64,000 bases of DNA from Pelagibaculum spongiae (GTDB lineage: Bacteria; Pseudomonadota; Gammaproteobacteria; Enterobacterales; Pelagibaculaceae), in NCBI RefSeq assembly GCF_003097315.1, contig NZ_QDDL01000001.1, positions 620,001 to 684,000 of the forward strand. The letters are read 5' to 3'. The notes beneath the pieces are model-generated. The model saw nothing but the letters and a program-made list of their open reading frames with translations. It was not told the origin of the DNA and did not search any database. Each line of letters begins with the position of its first letter. The stretch's first letter is position 1. This document shows, piece after piece, positions 9,224-64,000 of the stretch. A program made the position numbers and the translations under genes.

Positions 9224-9826
9224 TTACTTCTTTTGCTTTAATTCAAGTTCAAATTCCAGTTGGATTTCATCACCCACAGCTGGCACATAGGTATTCATAC
9301 CAAAATCACTACGCAAAATAGTCGCGTTGGCTGAAACACCCGCCCAATTACCTTTATAAGAAGGTACATATTTTCCGAGCGGATGCTGACCATCAAAATT
9401 CAGTGTTGCAAACAAAGTCACCGGCTTGGTCACACCATGCATAGTCAGCTCGCCTTCTACCGCATAACGTGCTTTAGTGATTGCACGGAAATTTTTACTA
9501 ACAAAACGAGCCTGCGGATATTTAGTTACATCAAAAAAATCAGCATTTTTTAAATGCTTATCTAGCGCAGCGACATCGGTATCAACACTGGCAGGATCAA
9601 TAATAATATCCAACTTGCTGTTTTCAATCTTGTCCAGATCCAGTGTCACCTGCCCATCAAAATCAGCAAATTGACCGCGGAAGTTGGATAGCCCGTGATG
9701 ATTAACTTTGAACAGAACCTTACTGTGAGCCTGATCAAACTGGTAATCCGCTGGAGCAGCTTGAGCGCCCGCTGCAAATAAACCACAAGAAACAATTAAC
9801 GCACCTGCTTTAAACCAGCTTTTCAT
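9224..9826 (-). CDS. YceI family periplasmic protein (first copy)
   Basis: 200 aa with a signal peptide (ALIVSCGLFAAGAQA, cleavage before APADY). Canonical YceI features are YQFDQAHSKVLFKVNHHGLS, FRGQFADFDG, HLKNADFFDVTKYPQARF and LTMHGVTKPV. Secreted lipid-binding barrel; first gene of the operon with cytochrome b561 and a second YceI. Transcribed divergently from the LysR gene at 10331, which is a plausible regulator by position only. Confidence 0.93.
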   Translation of the reverse strand: MKSWFKAGALIVSCGLFAAGAQAAPADYQFDQAHSKVLFKVNHHGLSNFRGQFADFDGQVTLDLDKIENSKLDIIIDPASVDTDVAALDKHLKNADFFDVTKYPQARFVSKNFRAITKARYAVEGELTMHGVTKPVTLFATLNFDGQHPLGKYVPSYKGNWAGVSANATILRSDFGMNTYVPAVGDEIQLEFELELKQKK

Positions 9827-10330
9827 TATAAATTCCTATACTGTATTTTTTTTAAGCTCACCTTTTAAAGGCTCTTTTGAAAACCATATGGGTAAGCTTG
9901 CTTTTACTGTTATTTGATAAACCACAGCAGCCGTTGATACCTCAAGCGCTGTAAGAAAATACATTTTGTTCGAATCTCGCCCAGCTTACTCAGACAAATG
10001 ATCAAAATAAATCGTTCAAATTTAACTTCACATTTGTTTCTTTTTCGAGTAACTGCTTTTATCAGTAAGCAATAAGATCAAGCGGTATCAGCCAACTCTA
10101 TTTTGCAACTTTGCAAGCATTCTTTTGAAACATATCGCAGACCAAACTCTGTTTTACTACTAAGACTGCGACGATACTGAAACATAGATTTTCAACTAGC
10201 AGCGTAGCATTCAATCAGTTTAAATCAGTATTCTCAGCCAGCACAAAGCTGGATATCTGACGCACAGCATATTGGTATTTATGCCAACTTAGAATAAGCT
10301 TTGCAGCAAATGTTCATTGCGAAATTGCCT
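9827..10330. other. Divergent intergenic region, yceI operon / lysR
   Basis: 504 bp, AT-rich, no supported ORF. The spacing is that of a LysR-regulated divergent promoter, but I see no convincing LysR box or hairpin. Confidence 0.4.
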
Positions 10331-54979: not shown

Positions 54980-55120
54980 TTTTCCAACAATAAAGTAGCA
55001 CCACTTTCATGTGACTAGAGACGAGTCCTGCGGCACGCTCCGAACCCGTCATTCCGAGCGGGGATGCCAGAACCCAGTCGCCAAGGATGGCAACTCAGCA
55101 TTAATGGATCCATCCCTCCT

Positions 55121-55350
55121 TGCGGTATACATTCCTTCCTTGGAAATCGTCGATCCGGCTTCCTGACAGAAAATTGCTCCGTGCATTTTCTGCACTTCTT
55201 ACATCCTGTAAGTCGCCTACTATCGACATACATTCCTTCCCTGGAAATCGTCGATCCGGCTTCCTGCCTCCTATCGACATACATTCCTTCCCTGGAAATC
55301 GTCGATCCGGCTTCCTGCCTCCTATCGACATACATTCCTTCCCTGGAAAT
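55121..55350 (-). repeat. 51-bp repeat array, locus 2
   Basis: One isolated unit (about 55121-55165), a 58-bp insertion carrying its own CAGAAAAT/ATTTTCTG hairpin, two complete units (55224-55274 and 55275-55325) and a trailing 25-bp part-unit (55326-55350) fused to the rnfH terminator. Same design as 43480-43631, but the outer stem is GTCGAT/ATCGAC instead of GTCGTA/TACGAC. To the left (55047-55096) lies the same GTCATTC...GGGAT...ACCCAG...GGCAACT flank. Confidence 0.92.
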
Positions 55351-55388
55351 AAAAACGCCGGTGAATCGAGTGATTCACCGGCGTTTTT
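55351..55388 (-). terminator. Terminator of rnfH
   Basis: AAAAACGCCGGTGAATC / GATTCACCGGCGTTTTT, 17 bp perfect with GAGT loop; 12 bp after the rnfH stop. Confidence 0.93.
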
Positions 55389-55400
55389 AATCAATACATG

Positions 55401-57695: not shown

Positions 57696-58169
57696 ATGGC
57701 AAAGAAAAAGCCTCAGGCACCAAGCAGCACTATTGCGTTAAACAAAAAGGCCAAACACGACTACTTTCTTGAAGATCGGATTGAAGCCGGCATTGCGTTA
57801 CAAGGCTGGGAAGTCAAAAGCCTCCGCGAAGGCAAACTACAAATGGTCGATTGCTACGTGATCTTCAAAAATGGCGAAGCCTTTTTATTAGGCGCACTCA
57901 TTAGCCCATTGAACACCACCAGCACCCATATATTCCCCGACCCGACCCGCACCAGAAAACTTCTGATGCATGCAGAAGAACTTTACAAACTGCAATCATC
58001 CATCGACCGCAAAGGCTTCACTTTGCTAGCAACCGCAGTCTATTGGAAAAAAGGCATGGTTAAAGTCGAACTGGCATTGGGTAAGGGTAAAAAGCAGCAC
58101 GACAAACGTGCCACCGAAAAAGAACGTGATTGGGATCGTCAGAAAAACCGGATCATGAAAGAGAATTAA
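57696..58169 (+). CDS. smpB: SsrA-binding protein SmpB
   Basis: 157 aa from ATG 57696. OB-fold core with [31 protein letters not shown] and the C-terminal tail [20 protein letters not shown] that enters the mRNA channel. Brings tmRNA to stalled ribosomes. The ssrA gene lies 450 bp downstream on the same strand. Confidence 0.97.
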
Positions 58170-58537
58170 TGGCTCTGTGCAATCAGTTCCGGTGCCCAGC
58201 ACTATTGTTAAGCACCATCATCCTGCACAAGGAAGTGCAGGATCTATGCAACATGTAAGTTAGGAGCGTAGAAAGAAATAAACACCCTTAATGTAGGTCG
58301 TCATGAGCGAAGCGAATAGCGACTTGCCAACAAATTGTCACGCTTCGCCGAGGCTCAGGGATGACCTACGAGAGAACACAGAAAAATTATTTATTTCCAC
58401 GGCCCTTAAATCATTCCCTTGCATACCACCCAACACATTTTTGATTTTGTTGAGAAAGTACTGGGTAGCACTACGCCTATCTAACCTCCATTGATTTCGT
58501 TCCTCAAAGCTAATATCACAACACCCCTAATCTCCGC
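58170..58537. other. smpB-ssrA intergenic region
   Basis: 368 bp before the ssrA promoter. Contains a 9-bp perfect hairpin ATCCTGCAC/GTGCAGGAT (58220-58243, AAGGAA loop, no T-run) 50 bp past smpB, and the large palindromic element at 58293-58369. Confidence 0.55.
58293..58369. repeat. Long imperfect palindrome (REP/MITE-like)
   Basis: GTAGGTC-GTCAT-GAGC-GAAGCG at the left is mirrored by CGCTTCG...GGCTC...GATGACCTAC at the right, folding into an ~75-nt hairpin with small bulges. The GTAGG...GAGCGAAGCG motif is of the kind found dispersed in many proteobacterial genomes. A partial relative is at 54171-54200. Confidence 0.65.
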
Positions 58538-58618: not shown

Positions 58619-58972
58619 GGGGACGACATGGCTTCGACGTGGGTTACAAAACCTTAGGTGCATGTCGAGGGGGCAATCACCCTCGTTAATCCATAATTGC
58701 ACATTCTTAGTTGCCAACGACGACAACTACGCTTTAGCAGCTTAACAGCTGCTGACTACCTAGACGGTTTGTCTGTGGGGTGCTCTAGGTAGACAATTAA
58801 CACAGAATAAGTTTCGCTAGTGCCCGACTAGTGAGATCGAAAATCTTAGGGCTCGCTTCCGTGCATCCTGTCAGTCGGATAATCGGCGGTTAAATTTGAA
58901 GACTTGACTAAGCATGTAGTACCGAGGGCAGAGGATTTGCGGACGCGGGTTCGATTCCCGCCGTCTCCACCA
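58619..58972 (+). ncRNA. ssrA: Transfer-messenger RNA (tmRNA)
   Basis: 354 nt. The 5' end GGGGACGACATGGCTTCGAC and the 3' end GGTTCGATTCCCGCCGTCTC then CACCA form the tRNA-like half. The tag reading frame (58713-58745) starts at GCC and encodes ANDDNYALAA then TAA; the common gammaproteobacterial tag is ANDENYALAA, so Asp replaces Glu at position 4. CCA is encoded. Works with SmpB to free stalled ribosomes and mark their products for proteolysis. Confidence 0.98.
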
Positions 58973-59336: not shown

Positions 59337-60376
59337 ATGGCAGAAATAACCTCTTCAACACCCAAGCTATTTTCTGAACTCTACACCCTCATTACCGACT
59401 CTCGTCAAAAAACTACAACAGCAGTCAACACCTCCCTGACTTTTATGTACTGGCAGATCGGCTAGCGAATCAATCAAGAAGTGCTGGGTGGTGAACGAGC
59501 TGAATACGGCAAGCAGATTGTCGTCACACTGGCGCGACAATTGACCAATGAGTTTGGCCGGGGCTTTTCTGATAAGCAGTTGCGCCGGATGATGCAGTTT
59601 GCCGAGGTCTTCCCGGAGCAAGAAATTGTCGTATCGCTGATGCGACAATTTAACTGGACCCACCTTATCGCCCTGATCCCCATGAAAGACCCGTTGCAAT
59701 GGGAATTCTATGCCCAAATGTGCCGCATTGAAGGCTGGAGCGTACGGGGGTTGGCAGAAAGAATCGACTCCATGTTGTATCAACGTACCGCGCTGTCAAA
59801 AAAGCCGGAAAAGCTGATTTAACAAGAATTACAAAACCTAGCTGAGAAAAACCGCATGGAACCCAGCCTAGTACTAAAAGACCCTTATGTGCTGGACTTT
59901 TACAGTTGAATGACCATTACCTAGAGAAAGATCTTGAAGACGCAATTCTGCGTGACCTTGAAGGTTTTCTACTAGAGCTAGGTGCAGGCTTTTCCTTTAT
60001 CGCTCGGCAAAAGCGCATCCAGATCGATGGCGACGATTTCTACATTGACCTGCTGTTTTACAACCGGCAGTTGAAACAGCTGGTGGCGATTGATTTAAAA
60101 ATCGGTCGTTTTAAAGCTCACTACAAAGGGCAGATGGAACTCTACCTGCGCTGGCTCGATCAACACAAACGTCAGCCGGGCGAAGAACCTCCACTGGGCA
60201 TTATTCTCTGCGCCGAAAACCGTAAAGAACAAATTGAATTGCTACAGCTGGATGATGCCGGTATTCACGTAACGGAATACCTCACCGTATTACCCGAGCG
60301 CGAAGTACTGTACACCCGCTTGCAACGCGCGATCGATGAAGCACAAAAGAAGTATGCGCTAAAGGAATCTAATTAA
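59337..60376 (+). pseudogene. YhcG-type (DUF1016) PD-(D/E)xK nuclease, inactivated
   Basis: From ATG 59337 the frame reads ITSSTPKLFSELYTLITDSR, then ...MYWQIG, a TAG (59463-59465), and continues RINQEVLGGERAEYGKQIV, the DUF1016 N-terminal helical domain. After KKPEKLI there is a TAA (59819-59821), then QELQNLAEKNRMEPSLVLKD, and at about 59900 a frame change leads into LNDHYLEKDLEDAILRDLEG and the nuclease core DDFYIDLLFYNRQLKQLVAI, DLKIGRF (D...D-x-K). Two nonsense codons and one frameshift: a dead gene. The family includes toxin- or defence-associated nucleases. Confidence 0.92.
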
Positions 60377-60882: not shown

Positions 60883-61370
60883 ATATCTTTACGAATCAAC
60901 TACAGCACCCTTTTCATACATTGTCAGATTGATTCAAATTGTTTTTTAATTTTCAATTTTTTTGTATTTTTTAGCTAAATAAATTTAATGTTATACCGCT
61001 TTAAACGCACTAACTTGCATCACAAGAAAGGTGCAACCGATATTATCTTCACTATAACTGGCTATTATTGGCATTTATCAGGCCTCTAACATGTAGTTAA
61101 AAATTGCATCTTTCCCATAGTTCACACCCGCCGTTTTACTGAAGAGGCTTTTCTAGTAAATTCTTCAATCGCAAAAGAGATTAGCGCAAACCATCATCTA
61201 TTTCTGACAAACAGAACCCTTACAGACTGTTAATAAACTTGTTTTAACGCAACCCAATACGAATGATGGTGGTTATCATATTGACACACACTCGACTGTG
61301 CGATACAAAACACCTCCGAAAGCAGATAAATATCACCTTCATCTAGGTATGATGTTTTCAAGCAGGGCAC
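60883..61370. other. AT-rich upstream region of the WYL gene
   Basis: 488 bp, very AT-rich, no ORF. Presumably contains the WYL-helicase promoter and an operator for the WYL protein, but I could not pick out a convincing palindrome. Confidence 0.35.
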
Positions 61371-62333
61371 ATGAACGAAACCATTACTCAAGACTACTAT
61401 CCCTCAGCCAACAATCATGCCCCTAATCGCTTGCTTGAAGTCACCCAAGCCCAACGTGCGCGGTTATTTTATATCGACTTCCGCTTATTCTTCTACGGCA
61501 CAATCAATCGGGCCGATCTAGTTGCTCGCTTTGGTATTAAAGAAGCCGCCGCATCACGTGACCTGTCATTATATAAAGAAATTGCACCAAAAAATATCGA
61601 GTATGACACCAAAGGCAAAAGCTATATTCAACGACAAAGCGAAAACATAAAATGCTGCTTTGCACCACTATTTGAATATACAGCAAACCAAACATTAGCA
61701 AGCCTTCTTCATGGTTTTGGGGATGATTTTCTAGGGGTTCAAGAACCACTAATTCCTTGTATATCTCCAGTACTCTTGAATGCTCCAGATCTTCAATCAC
61801 TGGCGCTCATTACTAAAGCCATTTATCAGAAGAAAATTTTAAAGATAACTTACCACTCGCTAACCAGTGGATTATCTCAAAAGGAAATCACCCCTTTTGC
61901 TTTAATTAATAATGGACTACATTGGCATGTTCGAGGCTATGACCGATCACAGAAACGATTTGCCGATTTTGTAATCAATCGAATCGAGTTGCCACAACTC
62001 ATTGATAAAACGCCCTCGAAGGATCAAACCAAAACTGCTGATGATCAGTGGAATAAAATTGTTGAATTACGCATTCAAGCACATCCAAAGCTAGAGCATC
62101 CAAAAACTATAGAGCATGAGTATGCAATGCAAAACGGAGAACTTAAAATAGAAGTTCGAGCAGCTATTGCAGGCTATGTTTTACGCTATTGGAATGTAGA
62201 TTGCTCTGACCAACCCAATAGTTCTCTAGCGGGATTTCATCTTTGGCTAGCAAATAAGGATGCACTGAAGAGGCTCGACAATCTCATTCTTGCAACGGGT
62301 AACAACTACGCAACTCATATCATGGATGATTGA
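61371..62333 (+). CDS. WYL-domain transcriptional regulator (BrxR/CapW-like)
   Basis: 320 aa. N-terminal winged helix-turn-helix (residues ~25-85: RLFYIDFRLFFYGTINRADL, then VARFGIKEAAASRDLSLYKE), a central WYL domain (about 140-215: AIYQKKILKITYHSLTSG, GLHWHVRGYD, FADFVINRI) and a C-terminal dimerisation domain. This three-part layout is that of regulators guarding BREX, CBASS and similar phage-defence operons. Stops 10 bp before the helicase gene, so the pair is an operon. Confidence 0.9.
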   Translation: MNETITQDYYPSANNHAPNRLLEVTQAQRARLFYIDFRLFFYGTINRADLVARFGIKEAAASRDLSLYKEIAPKNIEYDTKGKSYIQRQSENIKCCFAPLFEYTANQTLASLLHGFGDDFLGVQEPLIPCISPVLLNAPDLQSLALITKAIYQKKILKITYHSLTSGLSQKEITPFALINNGLHWHVRGYDRSQKRFADFVINRIELPQLIDKTPSKDQTKTADDQWNKIVELRIQAHPKLEHPKTIEHEYAMQNGELKIEVRAAIAGYVLRYWNVDCSDQPNSSLAGFHLWLANKDALKRLDNLILATGNNYATHIMDD

Positions 62334-62343
62334 GAGGATTTAA

Positions 62344-64000
62344 ATGCTGAAATTAGAAGACATCAAAAAAGACGCACAAGTCCAAGGTATTCTGGCCGAT
62401 ACAATTGTCCGTATTGTACAAATCGAGCCTATTGGTGAAGCTGCTATCACTGTCTATTACAAGGACAGCCAAGGCGCGTTAGGCGAGCAAATGCTATTTC
62501 GCTCAGATGAAGCTCGTTTATCAGTAGCAACTGCCGGTCGCCCTTGGGCTTTTGATGCGCCAGGAGCAGAATTTAAACTGGGTCTAGAAGCATATCGCAT
62601 TTCACAAGCAGCCTTATTTGACCCAATGATGGCCGTACATACTTCTAGCGTTGAACCCTTGCCGCATCAAATTTCGGCTGTATATGAACACATGCTACCC
62701 AAACAACCATTGCGTTATGTTTTGGCCGATGATCCTGGTGCAGGAAAAACGATCATGGCCGGTTTATTAATTAGTGAGCTGCTAATGCGTGCAGACGCTA
62801 AAAGAATTTTGATTGTTTCTCCAGGTTCTTTAACTGAACAATGGCAAGATGAGTTACTAGAAAAATTCGGCGTGATTTTTGATATATTTAGCAAAGAAAA
62901 ACAAGAACAATGTGCTTCAGGTAATTATTTCAATGAATCAGATCAACTTATTTGCAGACTAGACCAATTATCTAGAAATGAAGATTTTCAAAACAAATTA
63001 AAAAACACTGAGTGGGATCTCATCATCGTTGATGAAGCCCATAAATTATCGGCCAGTTATTTTGGAAACAAAGTAAACAAAACCAAACGATTTCTATTAG
63101 GTGAATTACTCGGTTCGATTACTCGGCATTACTTGCTCATGACCGCCACCCCACACAACGGCAAAGAAGAAGACTTTCAAGTCTGGTTATCTTTGCTGGA
63201 TACAGATAGGTTTTATGGGAAATTCCGGGAAGGTGCACATAAGGTCGACGTAACAGATATGATGCGCAGGATGGTAAAAGAAGAACTACTCAAATTTGAT
63301 GGCACCCCTCTTTTCCCTGAGCGCCGTGCTTATACAGCAAATTACGAACTTTCATCCATGGAAGCATCACTTTATGAACAGGTGACGACCTATGTTCGTG
63401 AAGAAATGAACCGAGCAGACAATCTCGACGGCAAAAAGAAAAATAACGTCGGCTTTGCATTAACCATGCTGCAACGTCGCTTGGCATCCAGCCCCGAAGC
63501 AATCTATCAATCGCTTAAACGCCGTCGTAAACGCTTAGAAGACCGTCTGACAGAAACCAGGCTTCTCGCACGTGGTCAATCCGCCGCTGGAGACATCGCC
63601 GAAACAATTGGTGAATACAGTGTAAAGAAACAAATCGACCTACCAGAAAATCTTGATGATCTTGATGATGAATTAAGTGCAGAAGAGTATGAAATCTATG
63701 CCGAGCAAGTAGTTGATCAAGCCTCAGCTGCCGAAACAATCCCTGAGCTCGAAGCAGAAATATTGATACTTAAAGATCTAGAATACCAAGCATTAAAAGT
63801 AGTGCAATCAGGTAATGATAAAAAATGGGAAGAATTATCTTGCTTACTACAAGATAATCCCGAGATGTTCAGAGCTAGCGGCAGTCGCCGAAAACTCATT
63901 ATTTTTACAGAACACAAAGATACATTGAATTATCTGATCACACGTATCAGCGGCATGCTCGGTGACACCAATGCCGTTCGCAAAATTTATGGTGGCACCA
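62344..64000 (+). CDS. SF2/SNF2-like helicase, defence-associated (partial, 3' end outside window)
   Basis: 552 codons visible, open to the right edge. A ~100-residue N-terminal domain precedes the helicase core: [10 protein letters not shown] (Q-motif-like), Walker A DDPGAGKT at ~129-136, [13 protein letters not shown] (DEAH at 230-233), LMTATPHNG, then a Lys/Arg/Glu-rich helical insert and the second RecA lobe beginning [24 protein letters not shown] is a strong ribosome site. The architecture is that of large helicases encoded with methyltransferase genes in DISARM class 1 (DrmD) or DUF1156/DUF499 systems; which applies cannot be decided because the following genes are not in view. Confidence 0.9.

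Follow-up and report, generated by a model that had tools for sequence, protein, structure and literature searches.

A complete Hma operon, a system also known as Type-1 BREX-related (BR), very probably (about 0.88) begins at the right-hand end of the analysed stretch of the Pelagibaculum spongiae genome, with a Septu pair (PtuAB) lying between hmaA and hmaB and a BrxR/CapW-like WYL regulator in front, as judged from gene content and profile matches. In related operons, the slot that holds Septu here is empty or filled with other defence genes. The window, by which the whole analysed stretch of 64,000 nucleotides is meant (C1:620001-684000 of the 4.99-Mb genome), ends within hmaA; the sequence was extended rightward as 40 kb from window position 58000 (L002; window position = L002 position + 57999).

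Gene content of the operon

The operon genes lie on the same strand, tight or overlapping, in the order WYL regulator, hmaA, ptuA, ptuB, hmaB and hmaC (Table 1). As the preliminary description stated, 10 bp separate the WYL ORF from the helicase ORF, and the hmaA stop overlaps the ptuA start, the two genes sharing 4 nt. The PADLOC HmaA model matches residues 1-1177 of HmaA at E=0, the HmaB and HmaC models match at E=0 over nearly their full length, and PtuA and PtuB are recognized at 8.8e-182 and 2.9e-92, respectively. Pfam matches comprise WYL in the regulator, SNF2/Helicase_C and NOV_C in HmaA, AAA_15, DUF1156 and DUF499; PtuB has no Pfam match. Sequence scans returned 16 promoter-like sites versus 31.4 in shuffles and 17 terminator-like sites versus 14.2. 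The operon appears complete and intact, and its Hma function here is a predicted one.

Table 1. Features of the operon and its surroundings, in window positions (those beyond 64000 are extended window coordinates)
Feature	Position	Strand	Length	Basis or remark
ssrA (tmRNA)	58619..58972	+		left boundary of defence stretch
Broken YhcG (DUF1016) nuclease gene	59481..60376	+		outside operon; DUF1016_N 59481-59822, YhcG_C 59906-60376
WYL-domain regulator, BrxR/CapW-like	61371..62333	+	320 aa	ORF, Pfam, solved-chain similarity
hmaA, SNF2-type SF2 helicase with C-terminal NOV_C PD-(D/E)XK nuclease	62344..65880	+	1178 aa	within window to 64000
ptuA	65877-67346	+	489 aa	PADLOC PtuA
ptuB	67330-67977	+	215 aa	PADLOC PtuB
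hmaB, DUF1156 methyltransferase	67958-70933, likely start 67997	+	991 aa	length from ORF opening 67958
hmaC, DUF499 ATPase	70947-73754	+	935 aa	PADLOC HmaC
Protein right of hmaC	74106-74828	-	240 aa	
Protein	75046-75513		155 aa	
Orphan ThsB-type TIR protein	75680-76111			= L002:17681-18112
Protein	76452-77069		205 aa	next a TauD-like enzyme, then a formate/nitrite transporter

The preliminary description had taken this region for the probable edge of a phage-defence island, with an operon cut by the window end. The extension agrees with both points: the helicase gene continues past the window, where ptuA, ptuB, hmaB and hmaC, all defence genes by PADLOC, follow, and the DUF1156 methyltransferase and DUF499 ATPase genes sought there were found. 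Housekeeping neighbours downstream and a helicase of a non-defence family, the two outcomes named beforehand as adverse to a defence reading, were not encountered. The suggestion that the locus could be something new has to be given up, as it is a known Hma with a known Septu.

The WYL regulator matches Pfam PF13280 above the cut-off, and its nearest solved chain is 7qfz (4.8e-78), which we take to be BrxR, followed by CapW chains and BrxR 7t8k. The likeness to these chains spans most of the protein, in line with the BrxR/CapW-like character claimed earlier. BrxR and CapW usually front BREX or CBASS operons, whereas the gene in Pelagibaculum spongiae fronts Hma. A search of window 61100-61400, ahead of the WYL gene, revealed no inverted repeat resembling an operator. 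WYL matches occur in 16 of 80 Hma loci, some of which lie on cut contigs.

Catalytic residues

HmaA carries the Walker A motif and DEAH box that had been ascribed to the helicase (DDPGAGKT, 129-136, and DEAH, 230-233). Among 61 aligned HmaA proteins, seven of the eight Walker A positions are identical throughout and A133 is found in 58, DEAH is kept in all, and K135 and D230/E231 are likewise conserved in 61/61; motif VI is also present. The C-terminal PD-(D/E)XK nuclease by which Hma/Type-1 BR is recognized (NOV_C, 5.9e-21) retains D1079, E1099 and K1101 in 61/61 and is predicted to be active. The DPPY motif of HmaB (D593-P-P-Y596) is present in 81/81 aligned proteins, D326/E327 of PtuA in 21/21, and H69 and N85 of PtuB in 17/17. 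Residue roles were assigned by motif, and the catalytic roles given for HmaA, HmaB, PtuA and PtuB are putative. PtuA aligns lengthwise with the solved Septu PtuA 8ee4 (2.2e-88); the nearest chains of PtuB are those of retron I-A PtuB (8.6e-43), with Septu PtuB 8ee7 more distant (1.9e-10).

HmaB contains a variable middle. Residues 301-600 show 26-62% identity to the HmaB described here in 7 of the 12 operons compared, in which the flanks are mostly far more alike, and part of this stretch stays similar in the other 5. Such a pattern is what target-recognition domain exchange would give.

Two cargo slots in related operons

A scan for HmaB relatives returned 253 loci, from which the best 80, that is, those nearest to the HmaB described here and not a random sample, were used. 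The cargo was labelled manually, on the basis of blastp clusters and of PADLOC runs on 30 of the cargo proteins, unscanned cluster members taking the scanned label, and the label "other" includes slots with fragmentary ORFs only (L058, L081 and L117). The hmaA-hmaB slot could be labelled in 68 loci, 9 being omitted for want of hmaA and 3 for a gap with no convincing ORF; it is empty in 27 and holds PtuA in 18 (with a PtuB ORF found in 16 of these), an NYN nuclease (HEC-09) in 7, an AbiL-like protein in 3 and other cargo in 13. The hmaB-hmaC slot was labelled in 64 loci, with 7 lacking hmaC and 9 having a gap with no convincing ORF; here, 34 slots are empty, 13 hold HEC-02, 3 each hold HEC-06, HEC-01 or Ppl plus a Schlafen-like protein, and 8 hold other cargo.

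The two Hma junctions thus appear to act as cargo slots, and the main families keep to one of them. PtuA, NYN and AbiL occur 18, 7 and 3 times at hmaA-hmaB versus 0 at hmaB-hmaC, and HEC-02 0 versus 13 times, with HEC-06, HEC-01 and Ppl each 0 versus 3. The split between PtuA and HEC-02 gives a Fisher value of 5e-9, with related loci counted as independent. A YhcG, a GmrSD-type protein (HEC-05 cluster) and a Schlafen-like protein are seen at both slots. Families HEC-01, -02, -05, -06, -08 and -09 are carried by other Hma loci among the best 80 of 253. On plasmids (9 of 62 HmaB-matched records examined), the hmaA-hmaB cargo consists of an NYN protein, an AAA plus DUF4435 pair, a Fic protein and a large ATPase, one each; 4 records have no cargo there, and 1 is unannotated.

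Intact-looking YhcG proteins (DUF1016/PDDEXK) were observed inside other Hma operons, between hmaA and hmaB at L095:3781-4929 (scanned) and between hmaB and hmaC at L072:2947-4017 (by blastp cluster); a broken one lies just outside the operon in the window.

Cargo turnover and the origins of PtuA

Slot labels were placed on FastTree trees with 200 shuffles each. The hmaA-hmaB labels require 35 changes on the HmaB tree versus a shuffled mean of 35.7, with 93 of 200 shuffles as low. Since the variable middle distorts this first HmaB tree, the count was redone on HmaA (28 changes versus 28.9; 79/200) and on HmaB without its middle (35 versus 35.8; 83/200), and the answer was unchanged: cargo at hmaA-hmaB is close to random on the HmaA and HmaB trees. 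The hmaB-hmaC labels are somewhat clustered on the HmaA tree, with 18 changes versus 21.4 expected and only 2 of 200 shuffles as low; on the HmaB tree clustering is not clear, the count being 26 versus 27.9 (24/200), and without the middle 29 versus 27.9 (179/200). The departure of the hmaB-hmaC cargo from full randomness on the HmaA tree counts against the exchange reading set out below.

Of the Septu pair, PtuA was placed on a quick tree of 21 embedded, 41 free and 1 unlabelled copies. Of 44 free copies, 3 were dropped by length (L202, L203 and L205), the embedded copy of L137, which duplicates L048, was removed, and L169, at a contig end, was left unlabelled; some copies counted as free lie on short contigs and could belong to undetected Hma loci. 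The embedded label requires 7 changes versus 17.7 expected, with 0 of 500 shuffles as low, and 18 of the 21 embedded copies fall in one clade (support 90, not starred), which also contains 4 free copies and the unlabelled copy. Embedded and free copies were sampled differently, so this clustering may be partly taxonomic. On the quick tree, the hypothesis that embedded PtuA arose only once is rejected (p-AU 7e-68), which points to several captures or releases. In the 18 loci that have PtuA embedded, its distances correlate with those of HmaA (r=0.61) and HmaB (r=0.59), compared with 0.78 between HmaA and HmaB, so some co-inheritance of cargo remains. The same genome encodes a second PtuA-like protein (G000:C11:8942-10201, - strand, 7.8e-62), and no hma gene was found near it by tblastn within the surrounding 15 kb.

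The PtuAB block of this operon was most probably acquired as a cassette, its exchange proceeding through recombination within the conserved hma genes on either side. The sequence ahead of the likely hmaB start resembles that of the empty-slot operon L043, and the junctions look seamless. Grimontia celer (L065) has an incomplete second hmaA 3' end at 9785-9982, placed after ptuB and ahead of hmaB. This relict shares 86% identity with the end of hmaA in that locus and, when read on through its junction with hmaB, aligns at 83% over 209 bases with the corresponding junction of L078, where the slot is empty. The relict, the sole one of an hmaA end among 92 loci checked, fits entry of a cassette into an empty operon by recombination at hmaA. 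The proposed cassette exchange is supported by the trees and by one candidate scar. A second partial hmaB 5' copy (50% identity) was also observed downstream of the hmaB start at L102:12922-13095, and L052 shows a split match within one hmaA.

A broader picture is offered tentatively, at slightly less than even odds. Hma would be a chassis with two effector docks, the families faithful to each (PtuAB, NYN nuclease and AbiL at hmaA-hmaB; HEC-02, HEC-06 and HEC-01 at hmaB-hmaC) being swapped through recombination in flanking genes, nearly independently of chassis ancestry and alongside target-domain swaps, as in an exchange station without a dedicated recombinase. No text on Hma cargo and recombination was found in a literature search of limited scope.

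Proposed mechanism

The operon would act as a phage defence resembling restriction-modification. The WYL protein would keep the operon low and be released on infection, by analogy with BrxR and CapW, which act by repression and release. HmaB would mark self DNA by methylation, probably at adenine as its family and DPPY motif suggest, with its variable central domain determining the target sites. Following a published proposal (PMC12839542), HmaC, a large AAA+ ATPase, would assemble a scanning complex, and HmaA, whose catalytic residues are present here, would translocate on unmarked DNA and cut it with its C-terminal nuclease. HmaB is described as an m5C methyltransferase by Payne et al. 2021 (PMC8565338), and as an N6 enzyme in the later account (PMC12839542). 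PtuAB would provide a second layer, an effector with its own trigger that cleaves tRNA-Tyr or DNA and brings infection to an abortive end if the first layer fails or is blocked. We infer both this two-layer working and the trigger of PtuAB, and the cutting activities are extrapolated from other PtuABs: the PtuABs belonging to retron-Eco7 and to an E. coli Septu are described as depleting or cutting tRNA-Tyr, and another Septu is reported to target DNA.

Surroundings of the operon

The tmRNA gene noted to the left of the operon in the preliminary description is present, and the YhcG nuclease gene that it called dead is indeed broken, with DUF1016_N and YhcG_C on two separate ORFs. Beyond hmaC, no ThsA partner for the orphan TIR protein appears among the matches listed for the 10 proteins scanned. 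Several other features were also observed. The smpB-ssrA intergenic stretch at window 58260-58410 has at least 10 more dispersed copies (84-95% identity) on several contigs and is REP- or MITE-like, and window 55015-55400 holds a tandemly repeated coding-like stretch, with a repeated peptide across several overlapping ORFs. At L003:1566-18070, two related 608-aa proteins each precede a tandem run of related lipoproteins with ENGLVGTK or a similar sequence at their ends, and the one 608-aa protein scanned has weak LCAT/PGAP1 lipase matches; the region presumably represents a secreted effector accompanied by immunity-gene arrays.

Alternative readings

The overlap of hmaA with ptuA, the clustering of embedded copies on the PtuA tree and the correlation of PtuA distances with HmaA and HmaB would also suit one machine, in which PtuAB is a nuclease component that this Hma lineage cannot do without and is switched on by HmaC/HmaA complexes. 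Yet the hmaA-hmaB slot is empty in 27 of 68 labelled loci and holds other cargo in 23, the near relatives L043 and L050 have no PtuAB, HmaA retains its own nuclease residues in every aligned protein, and the single origin of embedded PtuA was rejected. A single machine is accordingly considered unlikely, and PtuAB as an exchangeable second layer is preferred.

A slightly smaller chance still is given to the operon lying inside a mobile element integrated at ssrA, which the preliminary description had pointed to as a common integration site. The operon does lie downstream of ssrA, past a broken gene, and among relatives G374 has the ssrA 3' end twice and G371 a second 27-base match. In Pelagibaculum spongiae, however, a genome-wide search for the 20-base ssrA 3' end gives a single copy even when up to 3 mismatches are allowed, and among 9 tyrosine-integrase and 1 resolvase domain matches genome-wide the sole one on the contig, at C1:308748, lies about 370 kb off, so integration at ssrA finds no support. 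When the whole fetched stretch was scanned for 31 of the 80 Hma loci, a tRNA was found in 6 and a tmRNA in 1; such genes are thus not a common Hma address. As to the kinship of the helicase, the preliminary description named both DISARM class 1 and DUF1156/DUF499 systems, and hmaB and hmaC uphold the second. DISARM class 1 or another DrmD-type system is close to inconceivable: HmaA is also matched by DrmD models (1.2e-117) and by one for DrmA (1.8e-72), but DrmD reaches only 392 bits where the HmaA model reaches 2236, hmaB and hmaC match Hma models at E=0, and the DrmD/DrmA cross-matches are limited to HmaA among the matches listed (the best 25 for ptuA and ptuB), where the other operon genes have no DrmA, DrmB or DrmC. 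DISARM is refuted by this gene content.

Comparison with known systems

Septu type I shares with the PtuAB pair of Pelagibaculum spongiae an ATPase and HNH composition with conserved catalytic residues; it stands alone, however, whereas the pair described here sits inside another operon, and this PtuB is nearer to retron I-A/TIGR02646 chains than to Septu 8ee7. Retron type I-A itself was rejected, as a reverse transcriptase gene is absent beside ptuAB and the neighbours are hmaA and hmaB. BREX was rejected as well: the ATPase matches DUF499 and not BrxC (DUF6079), and no PglZ, BrxA or BrxB is among the matches listed; BrxHI/BrxHII helicase models cross-match HmaA at 7e-95. Neither PglZ as the Type-3 BR marker nor DUF3780 as the Type-2 BR marker appears among the matches listed for the 10 proteins scanned. 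We know of no iSTAND model in the profile lists used.

It was the association with Septu that led to the discovery of Hma (Payne et al. 2021, PMC8565338). The system is named Type-1 BR by Rakesh and Krishnan 2026 (PMC12839542), who describe its components as a helicase-nuclease, an N6-methyltransferase and a DUF499 ATPase, and auxiliary nucleases, including an OLD-ABC and HNH pair, within or beside BREX-related operons. The locus agrees in having HmaA, HmaB and HmaC nearly full length on one strand and a helicase with a C-terminal PD-(D/E)XK domain, with no essential difference; PtuAB and the WYL regulator are extras of some loci only. Hma-embedded candidates (HEC) form a named class (2024 Payne et al. 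preprint, as cited in PMC12988326), several of which are antiviral according to PMC12988326. These are defence genes nested between hma genes, as is the cargo here, which is a Septu and not an HEC family. The wider comparison yields a model, open to testing, for the acquisition and exchange of backup effectors in defence operons, with fixed junctions, faithful families, near-random turnover at one junction and, in L065, a locus that seems to keep an insertion scar. Rhizobium rhizogenes plasmid pC6.5e carries the same five genes in the same order in its annotated record, and together with the published Hma/Type-1 BR and HEC descriptions, this public twin identifies the operon as an instance of a known system, a complete and intact-looking example of Hma with Septu.
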